Positions 2,524 through 40,977 of a stretch of DNA of 64,000 nt are shown here, one piece after another (position 1 is the stretch's first letter; each line of letters begins with the position of its first letter). The position numbers and the translations under genes are program-made. The notes under the pieces were generated by a model. It saw nothing but the letters and a program-made list of their open reading frames with translations. It had not been told where the DNA came from and made no database searches. Origin of the DNA: Siphonodentalium dalli (taxonomy: Eukaryota > Mollusca > Scaphopoda > Gadilida > Siphonodentaliidae); NCBI GenBank assembly GCA_032622095.1, contig CP136061.1, positions 16,926,440 to 16,990,439 of the forward strand, given 5' to 3'.

Positions 2524-2565
2524 ATATTCACTGTCGGATACCCGTTTAGGTTCGGACATTCCAAG

Positions 2566-2594
2566 ATGGCGGCGCCGAGTAAAGAAGATAAACG
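2566..2594 (+). other. short candidate first exon inside left TIR (ATG to splice donor)
   Basis: ATGGCGGCGCCG begins a 29-nt reading frame encoding MAAPSKEDK that runs directly into a consensus donor GTAAGT at 2595. It sits in a small GC-rich island. The mirrored copy in the right TIR keeps the ATG, frame and donor, which suggests selection or recent origin. It could be the first exon of a transposase gene lost from this copy, or a captured host promoter and exon. No downstream exon was found. Confidence 0.4.
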
Positions 2595-3066
2595 GTAAGT
2601 GTATATATTGTCTTCATGCATCAATTAACGACATCTTTCGGTGATACACCTTGAAACAGTTATGTAGGAATTTGTATGCCCAACACATACGTAACACGGC
2701 TTTCTCGTGACAGACATGAAAATTGTTGTATTTGGCGTGTCAAGTCGTCATAATTTTTCGAAATTTTATCGAGGCGGCGAAATGTTCGCTTTTTCGTATT
2801 TTTCTGGCCCTGGGCTCATGCATCCGCAAATTTATGTATTGTTGTGGGTAGATTAGGTCACCACACATCTTCGGAATGCAAAACCGGCGATATTTTTATT
2901 GTCTAACTCCGAAAAACGACCTTTAAAAATTTCAAAATGTTCAGGTTCGGATTCGCAACATTCGCGATGATTTTGTTCAGGTTCAGACACAATTTTCGTT
3001 CAGGTTCGGACAAATTTGGTTCAGGTTCGGACAATTTTAGTTCAGGTCCGGACGCATCAAAACCTT

Positions 3067-5046: not shown

Positions 5047-5496
5047 AGTTTTTGATGCGTCCGAACCTGAACCAAATTTGTCCGAACCTGAACGAAAATT
5101 GTGTCTGAACCTGAACAAAATCATCGGGAATATTGCGAATCCGAACCTGAACATTTTGAAATTTTCAAAGGTCGTTTTTCGGAGTTAGACAATAAAAATA
5201 TCGCCGGTTTTGAATTCCGAAGATGTGTGGTAACATAATCTACCCACAACAATACATAAATTCGCGGATCCATGATCCCAGGGCCAAAAAAATGCGAAAA
5301 AGCGAACATTTCACCGCCTCGATAAAATTTCGAAAAATTATGACGACTTGACACGCCAAATACAACAATTCACATGCCTGTCACGCGAAAGGCGTGTTAC
5401 GTATGTGTTGGGCATACAAATTCCTACATAACTGTTTAAAGGTGTATCACCGAAAGATATCGTTAATTGATGCTTGGAGACAATATACACACTTAC

Positions 5497-5525
5497 CGTT
5501 TATCTTCTTTAATCGGCGCCGCCAT
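5497..5525 (-). other. short candidate first exon inside right TIR (mirror of 2566-2594)
   Basis: Minus-strand counterpart of the exon-like segment in the left TIR: ATG at 5525, the same 9-codon frame with one substitution (Ser to Ile), and donor GTAAGT at 5496-5491. Its presence in both TIRs means the element could fire two convergent transcripts into its interior. Confidence 0.4.
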
Positions 5526-5978
5526 CTTGGAATGTCCGAACCTAAACGGGTATCCGACAGTGATATTAGAGGTCAATGACGTGTTGACAAGCTTCCCAAT
5601 TCCCAGGCATGGTCAAAATCAACTGCATGTATTGTTGGAAAACTGAATACAGGCGATATATCCATAACTCATTTTACTCATCACATATGATTATATATAG
5701 GAGACATTGTCTTCGAGTTTTTATCAGTCAACGATATAAGTGACTGATTATTATTTCGCATCTTGTATTTATAACTATTTCTAAATACTACGATTCTCAC
5801 ACACATTTACTACGCTAGGAATGCACTCCATATTTGGAAATGGTTTATTACGTTATGTTGGGAATGCCGCGTCGTTGTAGAAATGAAATTTAGTGGACAC
5901 TTCTAGAGACGTACATCCGTTAGGATTATCATCGTCTTTTTAAAGAGACTGGCCGCTGAGCTGTCCAGAGCGTCATTA

Positions 5979-9699: not shown

Positions 9700-9769
9700 A
9701 AGTGTAAGCTCCAGGAAGAACATGTGAAAGAATTCAAGAGATCTATATTTGATGACTCTAAACGAGATG
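9700..9769 (+). pseudogene. LINE RT fragment upstream of the palindromic insertion
   Basis: Encodes LQEEHVKEFKRSIFDDSKRD in the plus frame, a segment upstream of the KLRTYRLFK block found after the insertion at 16635. The last six bases, GAGATG, are one copy of the target duplication. The two flanks belong to one interrupted LINE; a single-base change in an A-run just past the junction puts the two halves out of frame. Confidence 0.65.
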
Positions 9770-10114
9770 TGATGATACCCACCCTGTTTGGCCCCCAGAT
9801 CAGGAACGATAACTCTATCCGACCTATATGCAGTACATGGTGTTTGACCTATATTCTCCGCCCACGCGTCGGTCTATTTGTACCGGTTTGACATGTCCGG
9901 ACATGACCCGCTGGTTATATCCAGATTTCTCCATATGAATGGTATATTATCTACATGTATATCACGTGATGATCTCGGTGGGGTAGCTTCAGTCTTTAAT
10001 TTTAAAGGGACACTAGGCTCTCACTGGGGATCATTATTAAAGTGACACTCACTATGGATGAATGTTAAAGTAACGCATGGCGCACACTGTGGGATAATGT
10101 TAAAGTGACACTCG

Positions 10115-10370
10115 CATTGAAAAGTTCAAAAAGTTCAAAAAGTTCAAAAAGTTCAAAAAGTTCAAAAAGTTCAAAAATTTCAAAAAGTTCAAAAACTTCA
10201 AAAATTTCAAAAAGTTCAAAAAGTTCAAAAATTTCAAAAACTTCAAAAACTTCAAAAATTTCGAAAAACTTCAAAAACTTCAAAAAAATTCAAAAAATTC
10301 AAAAACTTCACAAATTTCACAAATTTCACAAATTTCACAAATTTCAAAAAACTTTAAAAATTAAACAAAA
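10115..10370. repeat. 9-bp minisatellite (GTTCAAAAA)n in left arm
   Basis: About 27 units of (G/T/C)TTCAAAAA, drifting to TTTCACAAA at the inner side. It begins with six pure GTTCAAAAA units; the mirrored array in the right arm has five. Read as codons it gives Ser-Lys-Ser repeats, or Phe/Glu/Leu repeats on the other strand, but these are by-products of the array rather than genes. Confidence 0.9.
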
Positions 10371-10390
10371 TTCAGGATTTAGTCATAAAT

Positions 10391-10474
10391 GTGACCCGCT
10401 ATATCAAATCCAGTCGGAAGTCGGGATTTTTTTTATCCTGTGCCAATGCATTCTCTTATATATGCGAGTCGACC
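10391..10474 (+). repeat. terminus of the GTGACCCGC MITE family plus one hairpin half, left arm
   Basis: Starts GTGACCCGCTATATCAAATC, continues through CAGTCGGAAGTCGGGATTTT and a CCTGTGCCAATGCA junction, and ends with CTCTTATATATGCGAGTCGACC. The same 84-bp block forms the ends of the MITEs at 40522, 43108 and 44971. In those elements the next bases are a 3-bp loop and the second half of the hairpin; here the ATPase cassette starts instead. Confidence 0.85.
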
Positions 10475-10700
10475 AGCCACCGCCGCCGGCGGCGGCGGCG
10501 GCAACTACATAATCCTATGGCATGCAAAGAAAATGGCGGCGGCGCTGCCGCCGGCGGTTCAGGATTTAGTCAAAAATATGGCTTGTTTCCATTCATCGGA
10601 AAGCTATGGGGGTACGGTGGTGAGCGCCACTGAAAAAAGCAAGTGAGCGAGGGAAAAAAGAGAAAAATAACATGACAAGTAGTACATAGTACAATTTATT
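10475..10700. promoter_or_regulatory. CCG-rich palindromic island downstream of the ATPase gene, left arm
   Basis: Contains CCACCGCCGCCGGCGGCGGC (10477 on) and a second GC hairpin, GGCGGCGCTGCCGCCGGCGG (about 10533-10553), against an AT-rich background. It also holds a fragment (about 10555-10608) related to the mariner-type MITE interior at 39136 and 62490. Being 3' of the ATPase stop codon, it could act as a transcription or replication boundary; that role is inferred. Confidence 0.45.
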
Positions 10701-10707
10701 ATATTAA

Positions 10708-12372
10708 CTATTCACAGTCACTTTCGTCCGAATTGTCATCACTTTCGTCAGATGTGTCATTTGTTTCGTCCATGAACTTTTCTAGCAATGGTCTGTACTT
10801 TAATATTGACATTTTCACTGCATCACGATCTTCAAAACCATTCTTCATATATTTCTCCACTTTATCCATGACACTGTTGTGCAGCGTACCATTGCGCAGC
10901 CACATATTCTTTATTATTGTCCAAGCATAAACATTCATAAATAGCCTCATGCCTTCAGTTTTAAGATCTGTACTTTTAAGGTCCTTGTCAGCTTGTACTT
11001 TTGCCTCTTTTTCTGTCGAGCCATTTTCCATATACGTTTCCACGTTATCACTCCATGCTTCTTGTGCTTTATCTCTACTCTCATCACACAAACTTTTGAA
11101 GTATTCATCTTCATTCGATTTAATTTTCTTATTCTGACTATCATCCGTGTCCTCAGTTAATTTTCGTTTTAACTTATTTTCTTGACACCAGTTTTTTACG
11201 TGTCTCTGGACATCATGCTGATCTTCGAACAAAAGCCCACAGTCATTGCAAGGGTACGACATGTCTTCTCGAATGCCTATGTTTTTATGGTTTTCTTTAT
11301 TAATTTCATTGATCTCACCAGGTGTCCTTATGTCCTTAGTATAGCCATTATGTTGACCCTGGGGCACACTATAATTATATGTCATGCACTCCCGTTGACC
11401 AGGGAGATCTCTGTCATCATATTTCATCTCATTCCGTTGATCCGGGCTATTGTTGTCATCACATTTCACCACATTCTGTTCATCTGGGTGCTCGCTGTCC
11501 TTATGGAGATTATATTTCATGCCATTCCATTCACCCATATGTTGGTTCGTGTCCTCTTTTAGCACATTCTGTCGCAGCCGTAATGTGTCCGGGGTTGCGG
11601 CTTTTAAATCCACCAGTAGGTAACCGTACGGTTCACTCGTCGCTTCCGAAAACTCTCGCATCATACGTTGAGGGCATTCAGGATACATCTGTCTTGATAA
11701 TGTTGAAATTAAACCCTTGTCAATTGGATTATTAAACAATACCAAATATTGACAATTTCGTCGTTGCGTCGGATCCTTGTTGTAGTAGAAATTCTGGTTC
11801 AAACTTATCAAAGATAAGTTCAAATGGTGACTTCCTTCGGAATGTAAATCATTAACTCTCTGGTCTTTTGATGAAGTTTGCATCAAGTCATCGAGTACAA
11901 CTAGATTTTTATACTGGGGGTTGATAAGAGAATCCAAGTTTGCTGGTATTCCCCGTATAAAGTTGACCTGAGGGGTGACGGTATACTTTATGTCATCATA
12001 TAGGGGCTGCCAATATTTATAAAACCATATTATTCTGTCAGGTGCGGGTGATATTTTTGAGGCAGACTTTTGTAGCAAGGTTTTCACGAAGTACGTCTTC
12101 CCACTAGATGTCGGTCCACTTACACATGCCGTGAATGGATGCTTGAAAATAAAATCTTCTTGGACATTGGCCATTGAATCATCAAAGCAGGATGTTATGT
12201 CGCTTTGTTGCTGTTTCCCCCTGCTGGTGTTGTAGTATCTGGTGTTGCTGTAATGGCGGTTGTTGTGGCTGATGATGCTGCTGCCTGTTGCTGCTGCTGC
12301 TGTTTGTTGCTGCTGCTTGGTGGTGCTGCTGTGGGTGTCGGTTAACAAACTCAGTGTGCTTAGATTGTACAT
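10708..12372 (-). CDS. viral genome-packaging-type P-loop ATPase (left-arm copy)
   Basis: A 554-residue protein, identical to the right-arm copy. Walker A GPTSSGKT lies at residues 86-93 and Walker B NLVVLDDLM at 156-164. These are followed by a sensor-like SLISLNQNFY (187-196) and an Arg-containing LSRQMYP (225-231), the order seen in A32/FtsK-HerA-like packaging ATPases. Residues 1-66 are low complexity (Gln/Ser/Asn). Four imperfect 14-residue repeats with M(K/T)Y...(D/G)Q cores lie at about 285-342. A C2HC finger (C375, C378, H391, C396), a Lys-rich stretch (398-420) and an acidic tail (541-554) follow. The likely role is ATP-driven DNA translocation into a capsid; the alternative is a transposition-associated ATPase. 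The true start may be Met67 or the finger ORF in another frame. Confidence 0.65.
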   Translation of the reverse strand: MYNLSTLSLLTDTHSSTTKQQQQTAAAATGSSIISHNNRHYSNTRYYNTSRGKQQQSDITSCFDDSMANVQEDFIFKHPFTACVSGPTSSGKTYFVKTLLQKSASKISPAPDRIIWFYKYWQPLYDDIKYTVTPQVNFIRGIPANLDSLINPQYKNLVVLDDLMQTSSKDQRVNDLHSEGSHHLNLSLISLNQNFYYNKDPTQRRNCQYLVLFNNPIDKGLISTLSRQMYPECPQRMMREFSEATSEPYGYLLVDLKAATPDTLRLRQNVLKEDTNQHMGEWNGMKYNLHKDSEHPDEQNVVKCDDNNSPDQRNEMKYDDRDLPGQRECMTYNYSVPQGQHNGYTKDIRTPGEINEINKENHKNIGIREDMSYPCNDCGLLFEDQHDVQRHVKNWCQENKLKRKLTEDTDDSQNKKIKSNEDEYFKSLCDESRDKAQEAWSDNVETYMENGSTEKEAKVQADKDLKSTDLKTEGMRLFMNVYAWTIIKNMWLRNGTLHNSVMDKVEKYMKNGFEDRDAVKMSILKYRPLLEKFMDETNDTSDESDDNSDESDCE

Positions 12373-12433
12373 GTCTTATCAAATCATGGTTCCGCACATA
12401 CTCACTAGAGCAAATTGAACACTGGTGCTTCAT
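12182..12433 (-). CDS. small C2H2 finger protein overlapping the ATPase N-terminus (left arm)
   Basis: An 83-residue ORF with a classical finger (C5, C8, H21, H26; spacing C-x2-C-x12-H-x4-H), followed by a Gln/His-rich tail from CAG-rich DNA. It starts 61 bases upstream of the ATPase ATG and overlaps it in another frame. TATAAA begins exactly 46 bases before its ATG, so this is probably the first AUG of the transcript. The ORF may be the original N-terminus of the ATPase protein, separated by a frameshift in the CAG-rich stretch, or a separate overlapping gene. Both arms share the arrangement. Confidence 0.5.
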   Translation of the reverse strand: MKHQCSICSSEYVRNHDLIRHVQSKHTEFVNRHPQQHHQAAATNSSSSNRQQHHQPQQPPLQQHQILQHQQGETATKRHNILL

Positions 12434-12473
12434 TTATACTTGACTAAAATATCTCGGGGGTATATGGCTTTCC

Positions 12474-12479
12474 TTTATA
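12474..12479 (-). promoter_or_regulatory. TATA box of the finger/ATPase transcript, left arm
   Basis: TATAAA on the minus strand. Its first base lies 46 bases upstream of the first base of the finger ORF start codon, the same distance as for the 73-residue gene. Confidence 0.55.
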
Positions 12480-12589
12480 CAAATGTTCCTTATAACCTCA
12501 AATCTGTCCTGTATTAACGGCGGCGGCGTTTGCCGACGGCGTTTTTTCCACCGGCCTTTCAATAGCCTTCGAAAAATTAGGTAAATTAC
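12480..12589. promoter_or_regulatory. GC-rich hairpin between the two genes, left arm
   Basis: Between the 73-residue gene's stop codon and the ATPase promoter is a GC island with GGCGGCGGCGTTTGCCGACG (12520 on), able to fold. It separates two co-oriented transcription units. Terminator or insulator function is inferred. Confidence 0.35.
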
Positions 12590-12811
12590 TCATTTTAGTT
12601 CAGTGAATATGTCGTTTGGAGTTTTCTTTTTAACTTTTCCAATGTTTGTCTTCTTCGCTCTTCCTCCTTTTATCTCTTTAACTTTTATCTTCTTAGATCC
12701 GGGTTTCCTTATAAGTTTTTCAGGTTTCACTTCAGTCTCGGGTAGGTACTTCGAGTCATCGTAGGGTACATATTTTTTAAGATCAAAGTCATAATAGTGC
12801 GGAGTCCCCAT
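12590..12811 (-). CDS. 73-residue Lys-rich protein (left arm)
   Basis: Begins MGTPHYYDFDLKKYVPYDD, a Tyr/Asp-rich head. Residues about 29-64 are strongly basic (Lys/Arg/Gly with little hydrophobic content), and the end is NDIFTELK. No family recognised. Size and charge fit a DNA-condensing or minor virion core protein; that is inference. A TATATAAAAA box starts 46 bases before the ATG. The gene is transcribed in the same direction as the ATPase, upstream of it, and is identical in both arms. Confidence 0.55.
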   Translation of the reverse strand: MGTPHYYDFDLKKYVPYDDSKYLPETEVKPEKLIRKPGSKKIKVKEIKGGRAKKTNIGKVKKKTPNDIFTELK

Positions 12812-12847
12812 TCCGGCTAAAGTTCAAAGTGTACTCTGAAGTAGTAA

Positions 12848-12857
12848 TTTTTATATA
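12848..12857 (-). promoter_or_regulatory. TATA box of the 73-residue gene, left arm
   Basis: TATATAAAAA on the minus strand, starting 46 bases upstream of the ATG at 12811. It mirrors the box at 13555-13564. Confidence 0.55.
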
Positions 12858-12924
12858 CGCCAAAATACCATCCAAGACGTATACCCTTATAAACTGCGGG
12901 TCAGTCCTAGTAACGCGCACGTCA

Positions 12925-12931
12925 ACGCCGC

Positions 12932-12970
<39 letters not shown>
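12925..12970. repeat. (CCG/CGG)n island at the inner end of the left arm
   Basis: CCGCCGCCGGCGGCGG followed by about ten GGC triplets. The homology between the two arms ends inside this tract. The right arm has the same start and then GCGTATGCGGC interruptions, so the palindrome boundary lies within a GC triplet repeat. Confidence 0.85.
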
Positions 12971-12971
<1 letters not shown>

Positions 12972-13003
12972 TGGTCGCCTCGCATATATAAGAGAATGCA
13001 TTG
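12971..13003 (+). repeat. second hairpin half following the cassette, present only on the left side
   Basis: GGTCGCCTCGCATATATAAG then AGAATGCATT, exactly the right half of the dispersed 70-bp hairpin, including the CCTCGC form that distinguishes right half from left (GTCGAC form). With the left half at 10445-10474 it brackets a cassette of about 2.5 kb. No equivalent is found at the inner end of the right arm. Confidence 0.85.
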
Positions 13004-13461
13004 CAATTATGAGTGATTTCCAATTGCAACACCCCCTCCTTCAACCAGACCAAACTCCGATACCAAATACCATATTTGCACCTCCTCCCTTAGGTTGGAA
13101 AGTTGGTACCTCAAACGTTCGAACAGTTTGAAATGTCTAATCTAAATTTCCAACAGACGGATGGACATCATTTCAGACTATTATTGGTCTAAAAACTACA
13201 AATTTCACACTAATAACATGTTGGAAAATCAGACAATGAAACAAGTTCAACCTACATGTGGTGTAAAATTCCAACTAATGTGTCGGGCATGACATTTTCA
13301 ACTTATTGCTATCAAAGTTGAGGGTGGGGGCAGACATCCCAGCCCCCTGTCGCCACGTCCCTGTCGTCCTTGTATATAATGCAGGAAGATCGAACATGTG
13401 AACAACAGACGCCGCGGCATACGCCGCCGCCGCATACGCCGCCGCCGCATACGCCGCCGCC
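13004..13461. other. unique spacer at the centre of the palindrome
   Basis: About 450 bp present once. An ATG at 13009 opens a 40-codon frame (MSDFQLQHPLLQPDQTPIPN start, then Pro-rich) ending near 13131. It could be the truncated start of a third gene, but there is no supporting motif. The rest is AT-rich, apart from a GCATACGCCGCC triplet-repeat variant at 13416-13460. The spacer shows the arms are not a simple read-through foldback artefact. Confidence 0.5.
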
Positions 13462-13490
13462 GCCGCCGCCGCCGCCGGCGGCGGCGTTGA
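13462..13490. repeat. CCG-rich island at the inner end of the right arm
   Basis: Runs of GCC triplets, then CCGGCGGCGGCG, mirroring 12925-12950. Adjacent spacer-side DNA carries four GCATACGCCGCCGCC-like units absent from the left side. Confidence 0.8.
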
Positions 13491-13554
13491 CGTGCGCGTT
13501 ACTAGGACTGACCCGCAGTTTATAAGGGTATACGTCTTGGATGGTATTTTGGCG

Positions 13555-13564
13555 TATATAAAAA
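13555..13564 (+). promoter_or_regulatory. TATA box of the 73-residue gene, right arm
   Basis: TATATAAAAA starting 46 bases upstream of the ATG at 13601. Confidence 0.55.
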
Positions 13565-13600
13565 TTACTACTTCAGAGTACACTTTGAACTTTAGCCGGA

Positions 13601-13822
13601 ATGGGGACTCCGCACTATTATGACTTTGATCTTAAAAAATATGTACCCTACGATGACTCGAAGTACCTACCCGAGACTGAAGTGAAACCTGAAAAACTTA
13701 TAAGGAAACCCGGATCTAAGAAGATAAAAGTTAAAGAGATAAAAGGAGGAAGAGCGAAGAAGACAAACATTGGAAAAGTTAAAAAGAAAACTCCAAACGA
13801 CATATTCACTGAACTAAAATGA
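13601..13822 (+). CDS. 73-residue Lys-rich protein (right arm)
   Basis: Identical in sequence to the left-arm protein: an acidic/Tyr-rich first 25 residues and a basic Lys/Arg/Gly core (about 29-64). The ATG is the first after the TATA box. No homology recognised. It is followed after about 110 bp by the promoter of the finger/ATPase unit, in the same direction. Possible role in DNA compaction or as a minor structural component; not demonstrated. Confidence 0.55.
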   Translation: MGTPHYYDFDLKKYVPYDDSKYLPETEVKPEKLIRKPGSKKIKVKEIKGGRAKKTNIGKVKKKTPNDIFTELK

Positions 13823-13933
13823 GTAATTTACCTAATTTTTCGAAGGCTATTGAAAGGCCGGTGGAAAAAAACGCCGTCGGCAAACGCCGCCGCCGTTAAT
13901 ACAGGACAGATTTGAGGTTATAAGGAACATTTG

Positions 13934-13939
13934 TATAAA
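13934..13939 (+). promoter_or_regulatory. TATA box of the finger/ATPase transcript, right arm
   Basis: TATAAA starting 46 bases upstream of the ATG at 13980. Confidence 0.55.
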
Positions 13940-13979
13940 GGAAAGCCATATACCCCCGAGATATTTTAGTCAAGTATAA

Positions 13980-14231
13980 ATGAAGCACCAGTGTTCAATT
14001 TGCTCTAGTGAGTATGTGCGGAACCATGATTTGATAAGACATGTACAATCTAAGCACACTGAGTTTGTTAACCGACACCCACAGCAGCACCACCAAGCAG
14101 CAGCAACAAACAGCAGCAGCAGCAACAGGCAGCAGCATCATCAGCCACAACAACCGCCATTACAGCAACACCAGATACTACAACACCAGCAGGGGGAAAC
14201 AGCAACAAAGCGACATAACATCCTGCTTTGA
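13980..14231 (+). CDS. small C2H2 finger protein overlapping the ATPase N-terminus (right arm)
   Basis: Same 83-residue ORF as in the left arm (finger residues C5, C8, H21, H26). Its stop lies just before the conserved ATPase region begins in the neighbouring frame, 10 codons before the ATPase phase becomes well folded. That geometry suggests an ancestral finger-plus-ATPase protein broken by a frame change in CAG-rich DNA, or programmed expression of both frames. The break is shared by both arms, so it predates palindrome formation or has been homogenised. Confidence 0.5.
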   Translation: MKHQCSICSSEYVRNHDLIRHVQSKHTEFVNRHPQQHHQAAATNSSSSNRQQHHQPQQPPLQQHQILQHQQGETATKRHNILL

Positions 14232-15705
14232 TGATTCAATGGCCAATGTCCAAGAAGATTTTATTTTCAAGCATCCATTCACGGCATGTGTAAGTGGACC
14301 GACATCTAGTGGGAAGACGTACTTCGTGAAAACCTTGCTACAAAAGTCTGCCTCAAAAATATCACCCGCACCTGACAGAATAATATGGTTTTATAAATAT
14401 TGGCAGCCCCTATATGATGACATAAAGTATACCGTCACCCCTCAGGTCAACTTTATACGGGGAATACCAGCAAACTTGGATTCTCTTATCAACCCCCAGT
14501 ATAAAAATCTAGTTGTACTCGATGACTTGATGCAAACTTCATCAAAAGACCAGAGAGTTAATGATTTACATTCCGAAGGAAGTCACCATTTGAACTTATC
14601 TTTGATAAGTTTGAACCAGAATTTCTACTACAACAAGGATCCGACGCAACGACGAAATTGTCAATATTTGGTATTGTTTAATAATCCAATTGACAAGGGT
14701 TTAATTTCAACATTATCAAGACAGATGTATCCTGAATGCCCTCAACGTATGATGCGAGAGTTTTCGGAAGCGACGAGTGAACCGTACGGTTACCTACTGG
14801 TGGATTTAAAAGCCGCAACCCCGGACACATTACGGCTGCGACAGAATGTGCTAAAAGAGGACACGAACCAACATATGGGTGAATGGAATGGCATGAAATA
14901 TAATCTCCATAAGGACAGCGAGCACCCAGATGAACAGAATGTGGTGAAATGTGATGACAACAATAGCCCGGATCAACGGAATGAGATGAAATATGATGAC
15001 AGAGATCTCCCTGGTCAACGGGAGTGCATGACATATAATTATAGTGTGCCCCAGGGTCAACATAATGGCTATACTAAGGACATAAGGACACCTGGTGAGA
15101 TCAATGAAATTAATAAAGAAAACCATAAAAACATAGGCATTCGAGAAGACATGTCGTACCCTTGCAATGACTGTGGGCTTTTGTTCGAAGATCAGCATGA
15201 TGTCCAGAGACACGTAAAAAACTGGTGTCAAGAAAATAAGTTAAAACGAAAATTAACTGAGGACACGGATGATAGTCAGAATAAGAAAATTAAATCGAAT
15301 GAAGATGAATACTTCAAAAGTTTGTGTGATGAGAGTAGAGATAAAGCACAAGAAGCATGGAGTGATAACGTGGAAACGTATATGGAAAATGGCTCGACAG
15401 AAAAAGAGGCAAAAGTACAAGCTGACAAGGACCTTAAAAGTACAGATCTTAAAACTGAAGGCATGAGGCTATTTATGAATGTTTATGCTTGGACAATAAT
15501 AAAGAATATGTGGCTGCGCAATGGTACGCTGCACAACAGTGTCATGGATAAAGTGGAGAAATATATGAAGAATGGTTTTGAAGATCGTGATGCAGTGAAA
15601 ATGTCAATATTAAAGTACAGACCATTGCTAGAAAAGTTCATGGACGAAACAAATGACACATCTGACGAAAGTGATGACAATTCGGACGAAAGTGACTGTG
15701 AATAG
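14041..15705 (+). CDS. viral genome-packaging-type P-loop ATPase (right-arm copy)
   Basis: Identical 554-residue product to the left-arm gene. Walker A codons lie at 14296-14319 and Walker B at 14506-14532. The sensor-like and Arg-finger-like motifs, 14-residue repeats, C2HC finger, Lys-rich segment and acidic tail are all present and uninterrupted. A stop codon TAG is followed within 10 bases by AATAAA (about 15713), a plausible poly(A) signal. Intact reading frames in both arms imply a young insertion or ongoing homogenisation. The family assignment rests on P-loop motifs and their spacing; similar invertebrate proteins with an N-terminal C2H2 finger are known to me as uncharacterised genes. 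Confidence 0.65.
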   Translation: MYNLSTLSLLTDTHSSTTKQQQQTAAAATGSSIISHNNRHYSNTRYYNTSRGKQQQSDITSCFDDSMANVQEDFIFKHPFTACVSGPTSSGKTYFVKTLLQKSASKISPAPDRIIWFYKYWQPLYDDIKYTVTPQVNFIRGIPANLDSLINPQYKNLVVLDDLMQTSSKDQRVNDLHSEGSHHLNLSLISLNQNFYYNKDPTQRRNCQYLVLFNNPIDKGLISTLSRQMYPECPQRMMREFSEATSEPYGYLLVDLKAATPDTLRLRQNVLKEDTNQHMGEWNGMKYNLHKDSEHPDEQNVVKCDDNNSPDQRNEMKYDDRDLPGQRECMTYNYSVPQGQHNGYTKDIRTPGEINEINKENHKNIGIREDMSYPCNDCGLLFEDQHDVQRHVKNWCQENKLKRKLTEDTDDSQNKKIKSNEDEYFKSLCDESRDKAQEAWSDNVETYMENGSTEKEAKVQADKDLKSTDLKTEGMRLFMNVYAWTIIKNMWLRNGTLHNSVMDKVEKYMKNGFEDRDAVKMSILKYRPLLEKFMDETNDTSDESDDNSDESDCE

Positions 15706-15935
15706 TTAATATAATAAATTGTACTATGTACTACTTGTCATGTTATTTTTCTCTTTTTTCCCTCGCTCACTTGCTTTTTTCAGTGGCGCTCACCACCGTA
15801 CCCCCATAGCTTTCCGATGAATGGAAACAAGCCATATTTTTGACTAAATCCTGAACCGCCGGCGGCAGCGCCGCCGCCATTTTCTTTGCATGCCATAGGA
15901 TTATGTAGTTGCCGCCGCCGCCGCCGGCGGCGGTG
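15706..15935. promoter_or_regulatory. CCG-rich palindromic island downstream of the ATPase gene, right arm
   Basis: Mirror of 10475-10700: AATAAA, a TAC-rich hairpin (GTACTATGTAC), a mariner-MITE-like fragment, then two GC hairpins. Same inferred boundary role. Confidence 0.45.
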
Positions 15936-16022
15936 GCTGGTCGACTCGCATATATAAGAGAATGCATTGGCACAGGATAAAAAAAATCCCGACTTCCGAC
16001 TGGATTTGATATAGCGGGTCAC
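15936..16022 (-). repeat. terminus of the GTGACCCGC MITE family plus one hairpin half, right arm
   Basis: Mirror image of 10391-10474: GGTCGACTCGCATATATAAG, the AGAATGCATTGGCACAGG junction, and an end of TATAGCGGGTCAC. It confirms that the MITE terminus was part of the arm before the arms were duplicated. Confidence 0.85.
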
Positions 16023-16042
16023 ATTTATGACTAAATCCTGAA

Positions 16043-16290
16043 TTTTGTTTAATTTTTAAAGTTTTTTGAAATTTGTGAAATTTGTGAAATTTGTGAAATT
16101 TGTGAAGTTTTTGAATTTTTTGAATTTTTTTGAAGTTTTTGAAGTTTTTCGAAATTTTTGAAGTTTTTTAAGTTTTTGAAATTTTTGAACTTTTTGAACT
16201 TTTTGAAATTTTTGAAGTTTTTGAACTTTTTGAAATTTTTGAACTTTTTGAACTTTTTGAACTTTTTGAACTTTTTGAACTTTTCAATGC
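16043..16290. repeat. 9-bp minisatellite in right arm
   Basis: Complement of the left-arm array with one fewer pure unit (five GAACTTTTT against six) and one substitution (TTTTTTAAG where the mirror predicts TTTTTGAAG). These are the only arm-to-arm differences I noted in the outer arm. Confidence 0.85.
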
Positions 16291-16634
16291 GAGTGTCACT
16301 TTAACATTATCCCACAGTGTGCGCCATGCGTTACTTTAACATTCATCCATAGTGAGTGTCACTTTAATAATGATCCCCAGTGAGAGCCTAGTGTCCCTTT
16401 AAAATTAAAGACTGAAGCTACCCCACCGAGATCATCACGTGATATACATGTAGATAATATACCATTCATATGGAGAAATCTGGATATAACCAGCGGGTCA
16501 TGTCCGGACATGTCAAACCGGTACAAATAGACCGACGCGTGGGCGGAGAATATAGGTCAAACACCATGTACTGCATATAGGTCGGATAGAGTTATCGTTC
16601 CTGATCTGGGGGCCAAACAGGGTGGGTATCATCA

Positions 16635-17063
16635 GAGATGGCCATAAAAAATAAACTCAGAACATATAGATTGTTTAAAACTGATTATGTCTTAGAGACT
16701 TACTTAATAAACACAACATCTTTAAAAGATAGGATCAGTTTTACAAAACTCCGTGTTAGTGATCACAAACTCGCTATTGAAGAAGGTAAACATCATCAGC
16801 CTATAACTAAGGAGGGGAAGAGACTGTGCCTTAAATGCAGGACCGGTTCTGACATAGAAAATGAGTATCATTTCATTATGGAATGTCCACACTATTGCGA
16901 TCTCAGAGATGAACTTTTCCAAATTGTTGGTAGATATCACAGTAATTTTACAAGTATGTCAAACGATCAGAAATTTAATCTTGTAATGAAAAATGATAAC
17001 CCTGAAATAAGCAGCAAAATCAGCAACGTGGTCCGGCGCTTCTTTGATAAGCGCTCTGAATGA
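16635..17063 (+). pseudogene. LINE RT C-terminal fragment downstream of the palindromic insertion
   Basis: After the second GAGATG the plus strand encodes about 141 residues starting MAIKNKLRTYRLFKTDYVLE. They include RISFTKLRVSDHKLAIEEG and a Cys/His knuckle (CLKCRTGSDIENEYHFIMEC) typical of LINE RT tails (zf-RVT). The end FFDKRSE is followed by a 3' untranslated stretch to about 17221. This is the 3' half of the LINE that hosts the palindromic element. Confidence 0.7.
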
Positions 17064-17650: not shown

Positions 17651-18241
17651 AGGGGTACTGTACCCAAGATGTTGTTGTTGGTTTCTATAATCCCCGAGTC
17701 GGAGAATAAGGTAACAACTTTTCCATTCTTTGAAAGTCTGCTGAGTACGAAGTAGTGTTACGGATAGCAAATTTACCGGAATGCAAAAATACAAATTGTC
17801 GTTGTCGAGTAATTTTTGTACAGTTTTCAACCAAATGAATCAAAAAAAATTATAGTATAAGCATAGTAGTCCCATATACTCATTTAAGTTATTGTATCGT
17901 CACTAGTCAATGAGTGGCTTGAGTTTTCTCCCCGTATAATCATAATGTTTCAAACGATCGTGTGTGCAATGGGTTTACTAATCCAGTATCCCTCAATTAT
18001 AATTTGATTACGTTTTGTACACGGAAATTCGTATTTTAAATTACGCCATGTTATGGCTCCAACCATAAATTCAATTTATATTAAATTATTAACTTTTAAA
18101 TTATTAAATTTTAAGATAGCCTATTAACCTGAGCGTTTACAGAATACATCTTCGACTCAAATTACTTATGTTTCTATATAGTATCGATAATAGATCGTTG
18201 TTGTCACCGGAAATTTATTGAAAATGGCGTACAGTACCCCT
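17651..18241. mobile_element. 591-bp MITE with TTAA target duplication (AGGGGTACTGTAC ends)
   Basis: The TIRs AGGGGTACTGTACCC and GGCGTACAGTACCCCT are flanked by TTAA at 17647-17650 and 18242-18245. The interior is AT-rich and non-coding. It sits inside the LINE copy that resumes at 18246. Confidence 0.8.
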
Positions 18242-18245
18242 TTAA

Positions 18246-20790
18246 TAGTATGAAGATTAAGAAAGTTGTATCACTTTTATTTCACTATTTCTCTAGAAAG
18301 ACCGTTCGCATGCTACGCTGTATAGATAGTGATATCACGAGCCGAGTGTGGTATAACGGTTGCCTGTCAAACTCTTTCAGTATAGGGCAAGGAACTCAAC
18401 AAGGAGCAGTCCTTTCACCTTTCTGCTACCTCGTGTATATCGACGAGCTTCTAAAATCGCCAACGACCACTCGGATGGGACTATCCATAAACGGCGTCTC
18501 TTGTGTCGCACCAACAACGGCAGACGACATCAGCTTAATGGGCATATGTTACAAATATAGCATCAAGTGGCGTTTTTCTTTTTCTTATACTAAAAGCAAC
18601 ATCGTTGTGTTTAATGAATCCAAGTCCACCTATTGTAAATCCAGTAGATCTTGGTGTTTAGGGCCAAACAATATACCAGAGCATACAGAAAGTCTTATCT
18701 TCTTCTTATCTTGTAAATACCTCCTATGTCAGGAGAACCGCCGATGGCCCGACGTTGGCATACTAGTACACACTCACACGGCTGTATAGACTTTGTGTTA
18801 GTATTGTTATTCTATATGGAGGGGTATTTTTTAGTAGGACTTGTTAGTACTTTTACATATATACATACCTGGAGGAGTATTTTTACCACGCTTGCGAACC
18901 AGACTGGGACTCAACTCGACAGGCCTGAAATTTTTATGTCTATACTTATACATACCCTGTTAGGCAGGTAACTCTATCTACATATCTACAACGTACTGGA
19001 AGCTTACGCCCCGAAGGGAGGAATTTAGACAGGAATTTTGCCATTCACCTGTGGATCGTTGCCCACAGTAGGGTTCTTTAACGTGCACACATGGTTGTAC
19101 ACGGGACAGCCATTAACGTCCCCACCCGATGGGACGGCGTGATCAAACCAGTGTCATCCCTGTACATAACACCGGGCGGGAGAGGATTACCGCTTAACGA
19201 CACCTCAGCGAGGCATGCACGGTACTTTATATAGGCACGATCAGAGCTCCCGACTTTTTGAATTGTCGAGGATCGAGGTGAATCGATCCGGGGTCCAAGC
19301 GAAACCTCTGGCCAGTAGTCGAACACGCTAACCACTCGGCCATCATACTCATCTTGGCATAGTTCAAAATAAATTCGCAAACGGACGAACACGAGGGCAC
19401 ATTGTATCTTCAAAACTACGGAAAACATTTTTCTCCATTGCACGGAAAGCAACCACTTATTCTCTGACACCGGCATCCCTGCGAGAAATTCTGAAATGTG
19501 TAGTGTTGCCGAAGGCTCTGTATGGTTGTGAGTTGTTCCCGCGCTGGAATACTCGTCAAGTCTCTACATCATGGAGAGGTCACTTCGGACATGTGTAAAA
19601 AGTATACAAACACTCCCAAAGAGAGCTAGCACAAGATTATCGCTTGGATTGCTAGGAATAATGCCAATAGAACAGCAAATACACATAAGAAAACTCTGCT
19701 TCATTGGCAACCTCATCCACCTGCCCATGCATCACCAAACTCCACTTAGATTGTTTCTTCTTAGGGCTCACCAACAATGTCTCTTCAATAGATCTACATC
19801 AGGCTTCACTCAAGAAATATTCCAGCTCCTTACCAAGTACGACCTAATCGACAATCTTTTCAACTTTATGAACGAAGGGACGTTTCCATCGAAAGGATGC
19901 ATGGAAGTCATTAGCAAAAGACTCCGTTATGCATTCATATTCCAACTCTTGGCTTTCAGTGGTTGTTTCTGATCCACCGCTGAAAGTACTGTCCTTGACC
20001 CATCGCAATCCGCTAAAGCAGTGGCAGCCTGAAGTTCATAGGCGCACAACACTCCGTAATGTCTCGCCTATCTTCGGACAATTTATTCGCTCTGTTTTTC
20101 GGTTCTGTTCTCCAGCACGTGACACTAGATTTACCTACTATACGCTCCAGCTTGACAAAATAATTTACTCCACAGCTACATTTCTCCTATGTGCAAGCGA
20201 CTCATTGAGAGGATCGCAAAAACTACTTACTTATAAACCAATGACATTGCGGTAGTCACATTACGAACTTGTTCAATAGACCTAGGAAATAACACTGTAT
20301 TTTCTTTGTTACTCTTTATTTCCAGTTCTTAAATAGGCCATTTCCATGTGATATATGCTACTTTCTGAATTCGATGACTGAAACCTTTGTCTAATTTCAC
20401 TGAAAAAGATAATATGGCGACAAACATTCCCATGTCCCAATATTCAACGTTGATGTCCAGTGAATATTGTATTTGGAAGTTTTATTTCGCTCGGTCACAC
20501 GCATGTGATAGTGCTAGTCAGGTTTTAAAAAGGGTAACTGGTATTCAGGCACTTCCATGTATGCCTTCCCATTTCTAAATTCTATCTTAGATTATCACTG
20601 ACCTCACTAACACTTGAAACTTGAAGATGTCAGAACCCAATCGCATGCGTGTGACATGGTGTAAACACTGTAAGATAATAGTGATTAATAGTGTGATTAG
20701 TATAACATTTGCATGCATATTTATATAATATGTATATATATATATATGCTCTCCTAAATTGAGAAGGTTAACAATAAACATCTCATATGT
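18246..20790 (+). pseudogene. LINE copy A, decayed reverse transcriptase and 3' UTR
   Basis: The plus strand encodes RT palm blocks: RVWYNGCLSNSFSIGQGTQQ then GAVLSPFCYLVYIDELL, and a TADDISL box in place of the usual (Y/F)ADD. After an interruption at about 18693-19345 it resumes with the thumb/connection region (19571-19970), including SIQTLPKRASTRLSLGLLGI and PIEQQIHIRKLCFIGNLIHL. The 3' region to about 20790 is shared with copy B. Frame breaks and insertions rule out function. The thumb motifs are of a type common in invertebrate LINEs; I do not name the clade. Confidence 0.7.
18693..19345 (-). mobile_element. insertion within LINE copy A containing a tRNA-derived SINE
   Basis: LINE copy B reads straight through CAGAAAGTATTCATCTTGGC, whereas copy A carries about 650 extra bases there. 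On the minus strand, from about 19345, the insert begins ATGGCCGAGTGGTTAGCGTG (an A-box-like tRNA head, Leu/Ser type). It has a B-box-like GGATCGATTCACC about 50 bases later, then a body with GTGCACGTTAAAGAACCC (about 19094-19077) of the conserved-domain SINE style. The A- and B-box spacing supports RNA polymerase III ancestry. The 18693-19000 part may be SINE tail or a second insertion. Confidence 0.65.
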
Positions 20791-21008: not shown

Positions 21009-21401
21009 CCCTTTACCCAACAAACCGGCCATAACCGGCCAAATAAAGCTTCAACAGCCTAAAATATCTTCGGTCTGTCTCAATAGAACCATACAGATAT
21101 GGATATCATTGGAACCGGCTCCTTGACCACATTGTGATAGTTACAGTTATGCCCTGTGCCAATGCATTCTCTTATATATGCGAGTCGACCATAGGTCGCC
21201 TCGCATATATAAGAGAATGCATTGGCCTAAAAAAAAATATTTTTTTAACACTTTTTACCATTTTTTCTTACATTCTTTAACAATTTTTTAATTTTTAATG
21301 TGTTAAGCCAATGCATTCTCTTATATATGCGAGGCGACCTATGGTCGACTCGCATATATAAGAGAATGCATTGGCACATGGCCCTTCTGTTGGGTAAAGG
21401 G
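21009..21401. mobile_element. 393-bp piggyBac-like MITE carrying two hairpin modules
   Basis: TTAA (21005-21008 and 21402-21405) flanks CCCTTTACCCAACAAACC at the left and the complement, GTTGGGTAAAGGG, at the right. TTAA targets with CCC termini are the piggyBac signature. LINE copy A shows the uninterrupted target (ATACTAAAAGCAACATCG). Inside are two copies of the 70-bp hairpin in opposite orientation (21155-21226 and 21306-21376), joined by an AT-rich (TTTTTAACA)-type linker. Confidence 0.85.
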
Positions 21402-22312: not shown

Positions 22313-23167
22313 TTAAGGCTCACCAACGTCTCTTCAATAGATCTACACCAGGCTTCACTCAAGAAATATTCCAGCTCCTTACCAAGTAATCGACAATCTG
22401 TTCAACTTTATGGACGAAGGTACGTTTCCATCGAAGGACGCATGGGAGCAATTGACAATTTATTCGCTGTTTTTTTTCCGGTTCAACTCTCCATAGTGTG
22501 ACACTAGACTGTGACGCTCCAGCTTGACAAAATAATTTACTCCACAGCTACATTTCTACTATATATATGACTTAGTTATAAACCAGTAACATAGTGGTAA
22601 TAATATTATGTACTTATTCAGTAGACCAAGGCAGTAATTCTTTCTTAGCCACAATAGCATACACTAACTAATTTATTTACAGTTTCTTAAATAGGCCATG
22701 TTCATGTGATATATGCTACTTTCTGAATTCGATGTCTGAAATCTTTGTCTAATTTCACTCGATAAAGTAAAATGACGACACACATTATCATGTTTCAACA
22801 TTCAACTTTGATGTCCAGTAAATATTTCATTTGGAAGTTTTATTTCGCTCGTTCACACGCATGTGATATTGCTAGTCAGGTTTTTAAAAGGGCAGCTGGT
22901 ATTCAGGCACTTCTATGTAAATATGCATTCCCATTTCTAAATTCTATATTAGATTATCTCCGATCTCACTAACACTTGAAAATGTTAGAACCTGGCCGCA
23001 TGCGTGTGACATGGCGTCAGCACTGTAAGATTACTATTGTGATTGGTATAACATTGGCATGCATATTTATATAATATGTATATAATTATCATTTGTATTT
23101 ATGCTCTCCTAAATTTAGGAGGTTAACAATAAACTGAACACGTGATACTTATTTACTGCGTAACGCA

Positions 23168-23710
23168 GGGGGGTGTCGGAAAAAAAATTCAGGCACGTAT
23201 GGCATTTTTTTCCCTTTCGATAATTTTTTGTACCCACCCACCCCCACCGCCCAATTTTTTTCCGTTTTCGGCAGTTTTTTCCCACCATTTTTTGACACCC
23301 ACCCCCCTTTTAACACTAAAACAGAGATTTGCGGGGGGAAATTCACTGTAAACAGCTGTATATGAATTTCAGTGCATACTATTTATCATGGATGTTAACA
23401 TGGACATGTAAATAGGAATGAGTCATTTTGAGGTCATTCGTCCAAAAAAACATGGCTGCCAGCGGCCATCTTGGATTTCAAAATTTGCAACAAAATACAA
23501 CACGATAACTGCCTGCAGTCAGTTTACCAGTTAGAATTACATTATTTCTCTCATTCAAAGTGGTTTTGAAGCCCAACTCATTGCCAAAACACTAAAAAAA
23601 CAAGCAGGAAATTTTTGTTTTAGTTGCGGAAAAAATTGCTTGTTGGTGGCTTTGACCACCCACCCCGGCATACGTGCCGGAAATTTTTTTTCACCCCCCC
23701 CCCCCCCCCC
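23168..23710. mobile_element. poly-C/poly-G-ended MITE, copy 1
   Basis: Begins GGGGGGTGTCGGAAAAAAAA and ends with a run of about 18 C after GTGCCGGAAATTTTTTTTCA. It is flanked on both sides by TGCGTAACGCA, a direct duplication of up to 11 bp. Contains GGCATTTTTTTCCCTTTCGA and the GCCAGCGGCCATCTTGGATT block. The interior is non-coding; short ORFs across the C-rich tracts have no support. Confidence 0.85.
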
Positions 23711-23746
23711 TGCGTAACGCAATATATTAATTGATCACTATTTTAA

Positions 23747-24179
23747 AGATATTCAATCCGAATGAACGCTCCAAAGTAACTATTTCTTTGGCTTCGTGTG
23801 TGAACAATATCTGATTCGAGTCGAGTAACACACCCATCAAAACTCAGAGTTATCAGATATCGACTTCGAAATTTGTTATTTCTGGAAATGTATCATTTGT
23901 GGCCCATAAAAGAGTCGTCAAATCGATAGTCTCGGACAAAATTGCGGATGAAGATGGATAACTCTAAAATCAAGTGGTAATATATACGGCAAAATTTCGT
24001 GATACGAAAGTGATAATACGCTGATAAATAACACGTTTTGGGAAATTTTATACCATAGTTGACAGCGGTTATCATTATTTTGTTGTAATTATTCGATTCT
24101 GATAACAAACGCGTATTTTGAAGAAATGTTGTTCTTGTAACTTCATGATATGGAGACCCTCTGATCGGATTGAGTACCT
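23747..24179. mobile_element. TTAA MITE family C, copy 1
   Basis: The ends AGATATTCAATCCGAATGA and GATCGGATTGAGTACCT are inverted and flanked by TTAA (23743-23746 and 24180-24183). A partial relative lies at 6640-6772. Non-coding. Confidence 0.75.
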
Positions 24180-24228
24180 TTAATTTACTTTCTGAATGCG
24201 TGTATGTTCAATGGAAAATTAAAATGAA

Positions 24229-24423
24229 CTAAAAACGAACTGCTGGTGGGCGCCAGACTTTCAGGAACACGGCTAAAGTAAATGCACTGGTGCCGATCAC
24301 AAACAGATCGAAGATCAATTTCAAAACCTGTGTACCCTTAAAGACACGGTTGGCCTTGGCGGTGGGTATCCTGTGAAAATATCTCCACCCGTCAAAAACC
24401 GCCACAAACAGAAAGAACATCAA
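24229..24423 (-). pseudogene. hydrophobic coding remnant, copy in duplication unit 1
   Basis: The minus strand encodes 64 residues with two hydrophobic segments (FFLFVAVF and LIFDLFVIGTSAFTLAVFL) around HRIPTAKANRVFKG. A diverged relative at 38120-38300 keeps FFLLMAV and AIPTAKA in the same order, so selection once acted on the peptide. It looks like one exon or a processed remnant of a membrane protein; I do not recognise the family. An exact second copy lies at 29253-29447. Confidence 0.35.
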
Positions 24424-24949
24424 AATGTAGATAGACTTTGTCCATATACAAATAAGAAATATCGCATAAAAAGTATGTTATGGTCATTTGTTTAACCATT
24501 GATATGTAAACAAAAGCATAAAAAGTAACTTTTCTGGTGTTTGTTTATATTATGATGGTAAACATAAAGAGCGTTCTTTGTTGGTGAATACCTGATATGG
24601 AACTAATAAAGAGCGTTTATGCCATTTGTGTGTGATTAGCCAGTAGCATTGTGCTGTCTTCTGTAACACAATCAGGCTCTTGCTTAGGTAAAATATAGTA
24701 TGTCTTTATGATAACATGCTGTTTACGCGATGGTCATGGTATATATGAACGGAACGGTGTGCGTTTTCTGTTTACGGTGTTTAGAACAAATATGAATATT
24801 TTCGACAATTAAGGCCGCACGTGCCTTTAATTCAACACTTGTTTTGGTGAGAGTGACTCATTCAGCGATAATAATATATACTATAGTTGCAACCAAACAC
24901 AATTCACACTCATGTGGGTTTACAAGGATCCAATACTACCAGTTCCAAC

Positions 24950-25140
24950 AACGGCTATTATGGTATGCTCATATGAGCATTTAGATTACCACCAACTACA
25001 AAAGTATGCTCACATATTACATCTCACACACAAACGGTCGTAATCCAGATTGAAACTTCATGTGGGCCATCATAGTATATGTACTCCCACAATAAAGGTT
25101 TTTTTTCTGTTCTGAATGCACAAGAAACTCTTCCCAAAAA
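24950..25140 (-). pseudogene. decayed copy of the zinc-finger gene 3' end (fossil 1)
   Basis: The minus strand retains MAHMKFQSGLRPFVCEM and a corrupted linker-finger segment homologous to the last two fingers of the zinc-finger gene, at about 75% DNA identity to 32870-33060. A CTCATATGAGCATTTAGATT flank matches the gene's terminal codons. Several frame breaks. Confidence 0.75.
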
Positions 25141-25440
25141 TTGTATTCACAAGAACACACCCGGACCGAAACCCGGATTGAACGATTCAACCATAACACG
25201 TGCAAATAAACATTTGCTTCCCAAATCAAGCCAAACTTGTTTTGGAACATTTGGTTGGCCGACAGACATTTAATGTAGTCAAACAAAAGAAAAGAAATCA
25301 AAAACAGAAGAAAAAAAACGAAAAACAGAACAAATTGTAAAATGCCAAAACAGAGAATTAAAGAAATTCGTGAATTTAAAAAAAATCTCAATTAAAAATC
25401 ATTATCTTCATAACCAATATATAAAATATAGTACCGTAAC

Positions 25441-26129
25441 AACATATGTTTATCCTCACAATATGAGAGATATGTTCTAATTATGCAAAAAATATATATA
25501 AAATTTGAGGCGTTGACAGGAAATATTTGCAAAAAAAACGCACTGCATTACCTGGTGTAGGAATCCAACTAGGGCCTACACTGCGAGAAAATAAATAAAA
25601 CAATTTTAATTGCATATTTGAGTTTTTTATTTGGTAGCCATTTTCAGTGAGTTTGTTTTCCAACTTATTGCAAACCTGGTTGAATAAAATTTATGTTGTT
25701 TTATTTTGTTTTGGTCCGTCAGACGATAAAAAAAAATCTGCAAGTGGCTACAAATAAAAATATATAAAATATGCAATGAGAATTGTTTTATTTATGTTCT
25801 CAGAGAGAGACAATAATGATTTCAGATGGTAGACTGGGCTAATAGTAGTTATCTCCTGCCACTCTCTATCGACCTACCTAAAAAAACTATTTTTTAAACA
25901 TAATTGGAACATATTTTTTATATTTCGAGGGTATATAAACATGTGTTGTTATGCAGTACTATACCATACATTTGCCATATACAGATAATGATTTTCCCCT
26001 TCAAATTGGAGTTTGTAATTGCGATTTTTTTTAAATCACGAATGGTGCACCTCCTTAATTATGTTGTTCATCAGCACCAACAGTATCTTTTCGACCGATC
26101 CTGTGACGCCATTAAGTTAGTTATAAAAA
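25441..26129. other. AT-rich gene-free stretch in unit 1
   Basis: No gene. A repeated AATAAAATATATAAAATATG-like composition and a GAGAGAGACAATAATG motif; nothing recognisable. The same holds for 30465-31150 in unit 2. Confidence 0.4.
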
Positions 26130-26300
26130 GTTAACCGTCCTCATTTAGATTCACACCAAACGTATGCCCGCGTATCTCACATACAAACGGTTCTAATGCA
26201 GTGTGAAAGTTCGCTTGCGGCATTACACTTCCCCGGTTGAGGAATTTTGTGATGAAATCCTGTATTTTGTACCTCAGAAAGAAATGACTTAACATCTATG
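26130..26300 (-). pseudogene. decayed copy of the zinc-finger gene 3' end (fossil 2)
   Basis: GTATGCCCGCGTATCTCACA followed by TACAAACGGTTCTAATGCAG is the antisense of the final finger (HMKFHSGLRPFVCEICG region), with 3' flank TTAGATTCACACCAAACG. The sequence upstream (26260-26330) is repeated at 26745-26815, so fossils 2 and 3 are themselves duplicates. Confidence 0.7.
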
Positions 26301-26339
26301 CGTTAAATGGGTGAACGTATTACAAAAACAAAAACCACA

Positions 26340-26640: not shown

Positions 26641-26963
26641 TGTTGCCCATCAGCACCAGCCTGGAGTAAACTATGTACATACACACATATAAAATAATAT
26701 CCGTATAAATATTGAGTGTATGTTTACAGACTATCAGCTTAGGTGTTTTGAAATGAAATCTTGTATTTTGTATCTCAGAGAGAAATAACTTAACTTCTAT
26801 GAATTATGGGTGATGGCCGGGTGAATTGGTTGCATCAACAGCTAATTATGGCGCATTCTAGAAATAAAACACCCACACACACTATTTTTTTTTTAATTTC
26901 ACGATAGAATGAAAAAATTCATTTGCATGCAAAATAAAATAAATATATGAATCAGTGTACCCT

Positions 26964-27107: not shown

Positions 27108-27139
27108 GAGGCCAAACCTGCTGTCAGGAACAACCTTAA

Positions 27140-28734: not shown

Positions 28735-28770
28735 TGCGTAACGCAATATATTAATTGATCACTATTTTAA

Positions 28771-40973: not shown

Positions 40974-40977
40974 ATAT

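Follow-up and report, generated by a model that had tools for sequence, protein, structure and literature searches.

A 64,000-nucleotide stretch of the genome of the scaphopod mollusc Siphonodentalium dalli (GenBank assembly GCA_032622095.1, contig CP136061.1, forward-strand positions 16,926,440 to 16,990,439; this whole stretch is the window, and plain positions are those within it) carries at 9770-16634 a palindromic element of 6,865 bp with its genes in two mirror copies. The palindrome is the commonest form of a multi-copy family in this genome and not a single captured accident, and judging from the variants that distinguish the copies, both arms of each tested copy derive from one arm. 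We consider it probable that the element is a member of a palindromic, probably non-autonomous (satellite-type) family that is related to the Mavericks/Polintons and copied via protein-primed synthesis with a foldback stage; the helper and the hairpin stage are parts of this scheme that we infer.

Structure of the palindromic element

The coordinates of the element are exact, and comparison of the flanks shows a perfect target-site duplication (TSD), GAGATG, at 9764-9769 and 16635-16640. In the BLAST alignment arm A (9770-12971, plus strand, 3,202 bp) is the inverted repeat of arm B (13438-16634, minus strand, 3,197 bp), and between them lies a unique centre, or loop, of about 0.47 kb (12972-13437), which the arms join in complementary GC-rich repeats. 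The termini are TGATGATACC..GGTATCATCA; by comparison of ends and with the literature, 9770-9775 on the plus strand is a doubled trinucleotide of the Maverick/adenovirus-like kind, (TGA)2, and its mirror motif occupies 16629-16634 on the minus strand (TCATCA on the plus strand). Outside the inner GC repeat three differences separate the arms: one 9-bp minisatellite unit, extra or missing at 10120, a single substitution (C at 10244, A at 16169 in the other-strand reading) and a single 1-base indel (12542/13871). The 9/27-bp minisatellite itself spans 10120-10350 in arm A and 16051-16284 in arm B.

Each arm holds open reading frames (ORFs) of 554, 83 and 73 aa. The largest encodes an ATPase with a Pox_A32-like core, a C2H2-like stretch and an acidic tail (10708-12372, minus strand, in arm A; 14041-15705, plus strand, in arm B); the next in size in the window copy has 118 aa, and the longest frame in the arm interior, 555 aa, compares with a maximum of 211 in 200 shuffles. 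A C2H2 frame is found at 12182-12433 (minus) and 13980-14231 (plus), and a 73-aa Lys-rich protein at 12590-12811 (minus) and 13601-13822 (plus). The arm alignment and the ORF pairs thus confirm much of a preliminary description of this DNA, namely the palindrome with genes in two mirror copies, the Lys-rich protein in each arm, the unique centre (given there as about 0.5 kb), the clean GAGATG duplication and, for the sequence outside the inner GC repeat, arms of about 3.2 kb that differ by one minisatellite unit, one substitution and one indel.

Origin of the two arms

A palindrome that formed once and was inherited whole predicts that arm A of one copy resembles arm A of the others. The minisatellite, the inner GC repeat and every gapped column were excluded from the alignment used to examine this. 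For five copies that share their gene set (the window pair contributing 2,890 aligned sites), the two arms carry the same state at 49 sites in every copy; 18 sites vary in one arm only, 2 are multistate and none groups same-side arms; with six copies the figures are 52 arm-agreeing sites, 18 arm-private, 3 with more than two states and again 0 same-side. In five copies the arms are 0, 1, 3, 7 and 12 substitutions apart, whereas different copies are separated by 20-35, and a frame break in the window ATPase, discussed below, is likewise present in both arms. On visual inspection a number of the 52 patterns contradict one another, as if copies had recombined, and are mirrored all the same. Because 52 sites agree within copies and none groups same-side arms, we take both arms of each tested copy to derive from one arm. 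The idea of a head-to-head dimer in the preliminary description therefore stands in so far as the palindrome was remade from one arm.

Arms of sex-chromosome palindromes are kept alike by gene conversion, and a palindrome of single origin, inherited whole and homogenised within the chromosome, would show the same agreement of arms within a copy. A control is provided by two loci on C3 that lie 0.5 Mb apart (257.897-257.911 and 258.413-258.425 Mb, L165-L172). They have a common TSD and common flanks (four main flank blocks are 99.7-99.9% identical) and so represent a segmental duplicate of one insertion; it carries an almost perfect palindrome of 14.3 kb, of which the second copy lacks about 2.2 kb of one arm beside the centre. 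In the outer 4.9 kb the four arms differ at 13 sites, of which 12 are single-arm, 1 is same-side and 0 are mirrored, so that the mirrored share of mutations has a 95% upper limit of 22%; none in 12 has P 8e-8 if the share were the 52/70 seen in the other subfamily. Arm-to-arm copying in the chromosome was not detected in the one case where it could be tested. In addition, the arm differences, 0-12 per copy, are all arm-private, as expected from divergence after insertion. In-chromosome conversion is therefore an unlikely source of the pattern, and with no mirrored new mutations in the duplicate, the equalising of arms seems to happen before or at insertion.

The same sites bear on a foldback-type transposon whose terminal inverted repeats (TIRs), like those of Galileo, were extended with internal sequence and whose movement is plain cut-and-paste. 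Galileo and Foldback elements resemble the window element in their long, internally repetitive TIRs (here the minisatellite), which are able to grow by internal sequence; Galileo copies recruit internal sequence into their TIRs, the copies with the longest TIRs being without a transposase ORF (PMC3573991). However, cut-and-paste would keep the arms as separate lineages, of which the 0 same-side sites give no sign, and the 6-bp TSD, the (XYZ)2 ends and the Maverick-type ATPase point to Mavericks. Galileo has a P-superfamily transposase and TIRs of 18-1,250 bp, the longest named being about 1.26 kb, and the accessible part of that account mentions no viral genes (PMC3573991). We regard such a transposon as quite unlikely.

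A multi-copy family in the genome

The genome of the window itself (2.23 Gb in 9 contigs) was searched with the left end, the ATPase and PF03175. Since only the best of each longer candidate list were scored, all counts are lower bounds, biased towards query-like copies. The left-end query gave 1652 first-look candidates, of which 40 were scored. From this list nine inverted-end pairs (two of them the one duplicated insertion) and the four best unpaired ends were read, together with the far end of one unpaired end and one further element. This yields 14 independent insertions with both ends seen, the window included. Twelve of the 14 read as palindromes, L175 is judged to be one from a single C3-type arm and the far end (the second arm was unread), and one is single-arm. 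Among the palindromes, L162 is palindromic over only 1.84 kb per side around an unpaired centre of 1.03 kb, and L174 is a palindrome without part of the centre; L178, seen from one side only, is not counted, and L179 is an end stretch only. The centre sequence is about 99% identical in L158-L161, and in L174 over 288 of 398 bases.

All 14 insertions have perfect 6-bp TSDs, every one different, and all 14 have the ends TGATGATA//TATCATCA, that is, TGATGA//TCATCA; by chance a given end would show a doubled trinucleotide with probability 1/64. These are Maverick-like integration marks, as the preliminary description had proposed. They also speak against an assembly artefact through fold-back or chimeric reads or copied arms, to which long inverted repeats are generally prone: both ends lie at perfect target duplications in 13 of 13, in the copies read the inverted similarity breaks off at the ends of the element or a few bases from them, and the arms carry private differences. 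An artefact is accordingly extremely improbable.

The ATPase query (5299 candidates, 78 scored) gives the same picture from within. Fifty-six of the 78 matches form 28 pairs, every one divergent (-,+) and none same-strand, with start-to-start spacings of 2.1-3.5 kb in 25 and about 5 kb in 3. Ten of the 22 unpaired ATPases were tested at the expected distance, and 6 have a mirror partner there, four of them split into pieces. No internal stop occurs in 70 of the 78 matches.

The gene content varies between members. ATPase and 73-aa protein occur together in six full copies, in L164 and in the C2 type. A 205-aa protein of the Bcl-2 family is encoded by L163 (Pfam 3.3e-14; best PDB match BCL-XL, E 4.6e-9) and, by likeness, by L162; it is present in two mirror copies in L163 (2199-2813 and 3119-3733) and once, in the unpaired centre (2177-2791), in L162. 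A 233-aa protein belongs to the C3 type and L173, and L176 encodes a 119-aa protein alongside a 225-aa relative of the 233-aa protein.

A one-time accidental snapback dimer, of the defective-interfering type, could also arise in Maverick replication and be captured by integration. The complementary GC-rich repeats at the arm-centre junctions and the existence of a single-arm relative are in keeping with this, and single-stranded DNA hairpins with large loops make foldback inversions in yeast (PMC7467729). The same genes and centre nevertheless recur in insertions that differ in locus and TSD, and the ATPase bears signs of selection. As a one-time event the snapback was dropped, since the family copies contradict it, and we hold it to be highly unlikely for the family as it stands; it may still be how the first palindrome originated. 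No title or abstract opening among those listed in the literature searched describes a palindromic Maverick-like family.

The ATPase gene and the other proteins

The window ATPase matches Pfam Pox_A32 with 26.6 bits against a cutoff of 22.8, which supports the virus-like character assigned to the element and the packaging type of the enzyme. Its integrity, claimed for both arms, did not hold up. In five other full copies and in L164 a C2H2 finger lies within the ATPase frame in both arms; this frame has 574 aa in 9 of the 10 arms of the five copies (the tenth has a stop) and 590 and 406 aa in L164. The window copy has the finger out of the ATPase frame in both arms, with the same frame break in each. 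Compared with these relatives, the window's finger ORF, previously taken for a gene of its own, is the N-terminal part of the ATPase gene; and because the finger is in frame in relatives and not here, the window ATPase gene is read as carrying a frame break and as not fully intact. The break may be common to another copy: the scored match C1:253657788 aligns in the window frame from residue 1 and has two stops.

Across residues 63-554 the variants present in both arms comprise 12 synonymous and 5 replacement changes (280 versus 1199 sites), a pN/pS of 0.10 with a binomial P of 5e-6, for small numbers and sites that are not fully independent. Three variants in these residues are arm-private, all non-synonymous. 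With so few replacement changes the ATPase looks selected. DNA matching the 73-aa gene is present once per arm in L164 and in each of the five other full copies, and once in the C2 element; its both-arm variants (2 non-synonymous) and private ones (3 non-synonymous, 1 synonymous) are too few to judge.

Database searches with these proteins returned little. The 73-aa Lys-rich protein has no Pfam match. No relatives of the ATPase, the ATPase core or the 73-aa protein were found in IMG/VR, where 116, 33 and 0 stretches fitted three degenerate patterns, none of them a significant homologue (best E 0.11), and none in GTDB contigs; the PDB searched by sequence gave nothing useful for the ATPase, and PHROGs and NCBIfam no convincing match. 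The relatives for which the preliminary description suggested a search of viral databases were thus not found in IMG/VR, and a family was found in the element's own genome. None of the window ORFs scanned has a Rep-like match. No Pfam capsid match occurs among the ORFs scanned, the 233-, 119- and 73-aa proteins being unassigned; as a test this is weak, since the 421- and 435-aa ORFs of the proviruses described below have no Pfam match either. AlphaFold models made without an alignment had predicted confidence scores (pLDDT) of 36.5 and 34.1 and were not used.

A shared acidic tail, DDNSDESDCE, ends both the ATPase (near 10708-10760) and the 233-aa protein (L165:1029-1727), as though separate genes had been fused to a common end of the element. 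A weak match in L176 is a 55-aa stretch 42% identical to ATPase residues 68-122.

Relationship to Mavericks and the structure of the ends

The genome contains Mavericks with their own polymerase. The search with PF03175, the protein-primed PolB type, gave 1596 candidates, of which 69 were scored, with 149 matches, and PolB frames of about 952 and about 1312 aa recur at many places among those scored. One provirus (C2:693552-709667) has 1.07-kb TIRs, (AGA)2 ends and the TSD CATGTG, and encodes PolB (1e-51), an rve integrase (3.8e-15), PC4 (5e-14) and an ATPase that is 31.6% identical over 193 aa to that of the window. Another, at 142.6258-142.6399 Mb of C8, has 723-bp TIRs, (AGT)2 ends, the TSD ATTCAG, an rve match (5.9e-17) and a PolB match that falls between the fetched pieces; over 195 aa its ATPase and that of the window share 28% identity (in both ATPase comparisons the E-value is for a single comparison). 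From these alignments the window ATPase is judged to be homologous to the ATPases of the two proviruses, and an ORF of the C2 provirus shares 57% identity over 152 aa with the 233-aa protein that other palindromes encode. Both proviruses have 6-bp TSDs. Two kinds of Maverick provirus are present in the genome (C2, C8; L189, L191, L192, L193), the C2 kind with a PC4-like gene. A similarity between the window element's end and the TIR of the C2 provirus consists mainly of low-complexity repeats and was not used.

Mavericks/Polintons, including adintoviruses and Polinton-like viruses, thus share with the palindromes the 6-bp TSD, doubled-trinucleotide ends, a homologous packaging ATPase and TIRs. 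They differ in that the palindrome ORFs scanned include no PolB or integrase and that the inverted repeat takes in the genes. TIRs of vertebrate Mavericks measure 46-1,447 bp (PMC8097293), and a study of cryptophyte Polinton-like viruses kept TIRs of 100 bp to 8 kb (PMC12220804), so multi-kilobase TIRs as such have precedent.

The preliminary description had derived the dimer from linear DNA with hairpin ends. Stretches of 60, 100 and 150 bases at the termini show no stronger folding than shuffled sequences do (z -0.16 to 0.09), so this route is not supported, and the element has doubled trinucleotides instead. In vertebrate Mavericks such trinucleotides, for example (AGT)2, are the most frequent of the published end motifs (PMC8097293), and the corresponding arrangement of adenovirus allows the trinucleotide bound to the protein to jump back (PMC4974454). 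Because a doubled trinucleotide is found in adenovirus and Mavericks alike, the ends fit protein priming, by analogy, and not hairpins.

Possible mode of replication

To our knowledge, Maverick replication has been little observed. For a satellite-type palindrome family related to Mavericks, the scheme that we think probable would run as follows. Resident Mavericks would provide the polymerase and integrase, and extrachromosomal copies would be made by strand-displacement synthesis that is protein-primed at the (TGA)2 ends of the element. Every cycle would include a stage in which a strand folds back at the central loop, one arm serving as template or repair guide for the other, and the palindromic duplex would then be integrated by an rve-type integrase. 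A palindrome strand can pair with itself over 3 kb, and the loop neighbourhood folds far below 20 shuffles (z -21), as the inverted repeat itself predicts. In the folded state either copying of one arm or repair of mismatches in the stem would equalise the arms, and the data fit either. The mirror form would supply two identical origins and two ATPase genes per molecule.

Defective adenovirus genomes with a long inverted terminal duplication arise by snapback synthesis of protein-primed linear DNA, and as here both halves come from one genome end; the present palindromes, by contrast, are a chromosomal multi-copy family with target duplications and a selected-looking gene. The dimer replicative forms of parvoviruses such as adeno-associated virus (AAV) are palindromic duplexes made by copying round a hairpin, so that their halves match. 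Halves copied from one another in each cycle, as in these dimers, are matched by the six-copy arm test and the C3 control, whereas the palindromes have no outer-end hairpin and, as noted, no Rep-like match.

Several observations weigh against the satellite scheme. Palindromy is not universal: the single-arm relative C2:685622-690058 has 4,437 bp and TIRs of 451 bp, and could be an older form or a deletion product. Four of the ten unpaired ATPases tested have no mirror partner at the expected place. Pfam found no PolB, rve integrase or capsid among three window ORFs and five ORFs of relatives, these scans covering part of the ORFs of the copies. Neither PolB provirus examined has (TGA)2 ends, and no matching helper was shown. 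No extrachromosomal or hairpin form was observed, and the C3 control is one duplicated insertion from another subfamily.

A replicating virus-like system, in the form of a multipartite or satellite Maverick relative whose working genome consists of obligate mirror-image (palindromic) linear segments with the same ends that are unfolded anew in each cycle from a single-arm hairpin, is a possibility that we put forward tentatively. Segment types with the same ends were seen with ATPase and 73-aa protein, with the Bcl-2-like protein, with the 233-aa protein, and with its 225-aa relative and the 119-aa protein. Mavericks are thought to be integrated viruses whose virions have not been seen (PMC8097293).

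Other features of the window

The 5' part of a dispersed hairpin-repeat family lies in arm A at 10395-10475 (plus strand), with a mirror copy placed by arm register at 15938-16018 (minus strand); it occurs elsewhere in the window too and in 10 of 13 relatives. The family has the stem unit CAATGCATTCTCTTATATATGCGAG, appears in several settings that resemble miniature inverted-repeat transposable elements and is found at 21150-21380, 37390-37830, 40517-40980, 43102-44024, 44965-45350 and 61644-61720; three of its elements begin GTGACCCGYCATATC, with 4-bp duplications by eye. The 35-bp motif TATATAAG (10441-10475, 12972-13003), considered as a pair of shared promoters, is half of this repeat. Among five copies compared at the centre edge (12972-13003), the window copy alone has a hairpin-repeat half there; an ATPase cassette inside a split hairpin repeat was likewise rejected, since four other full copies differ at the centre edge.

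The flanks of the element appear to be derived from a long interspersed nuclear element (LINE). Pfam gave no LINE confirmation for the right-flank ORF (16638-17063), and a reverse-transcriptase match at 18136-18789 is weak and under the cutoff. An unoccupied site was not found in the window, where the joined flanks gave only frames. On the minus strand, 49330-52902 and 55229-56392 hold a LINE that matches endonuclease and reverse transcriptase in a frame interrupted by one stop and, 5' of it on the same strand, a 387-aa frame without Pfam match. The window further contains a 5.03-kb head-to-tail tandem duplication at 23077-33127 (23077-28107 and 28105-33127, 99.8% identical) and an inverted repeat pair of 509 bp at 2524-3032 and 5059-5566, 95% identical and about 2 kb apart. 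An Rfam scan of the window gave nothing at gathering thresholds.

Implications

In each integrated palindrome tested one arm made the other, and the copies thus record a replication step, with the duplicated insertion as a control. They offer a route to the study of protein-primed replication, snapback synthesis and satellite formation from the chromosomal record, and they illustrate that one genome can hold many near-perfect palindromes of several kilobases.

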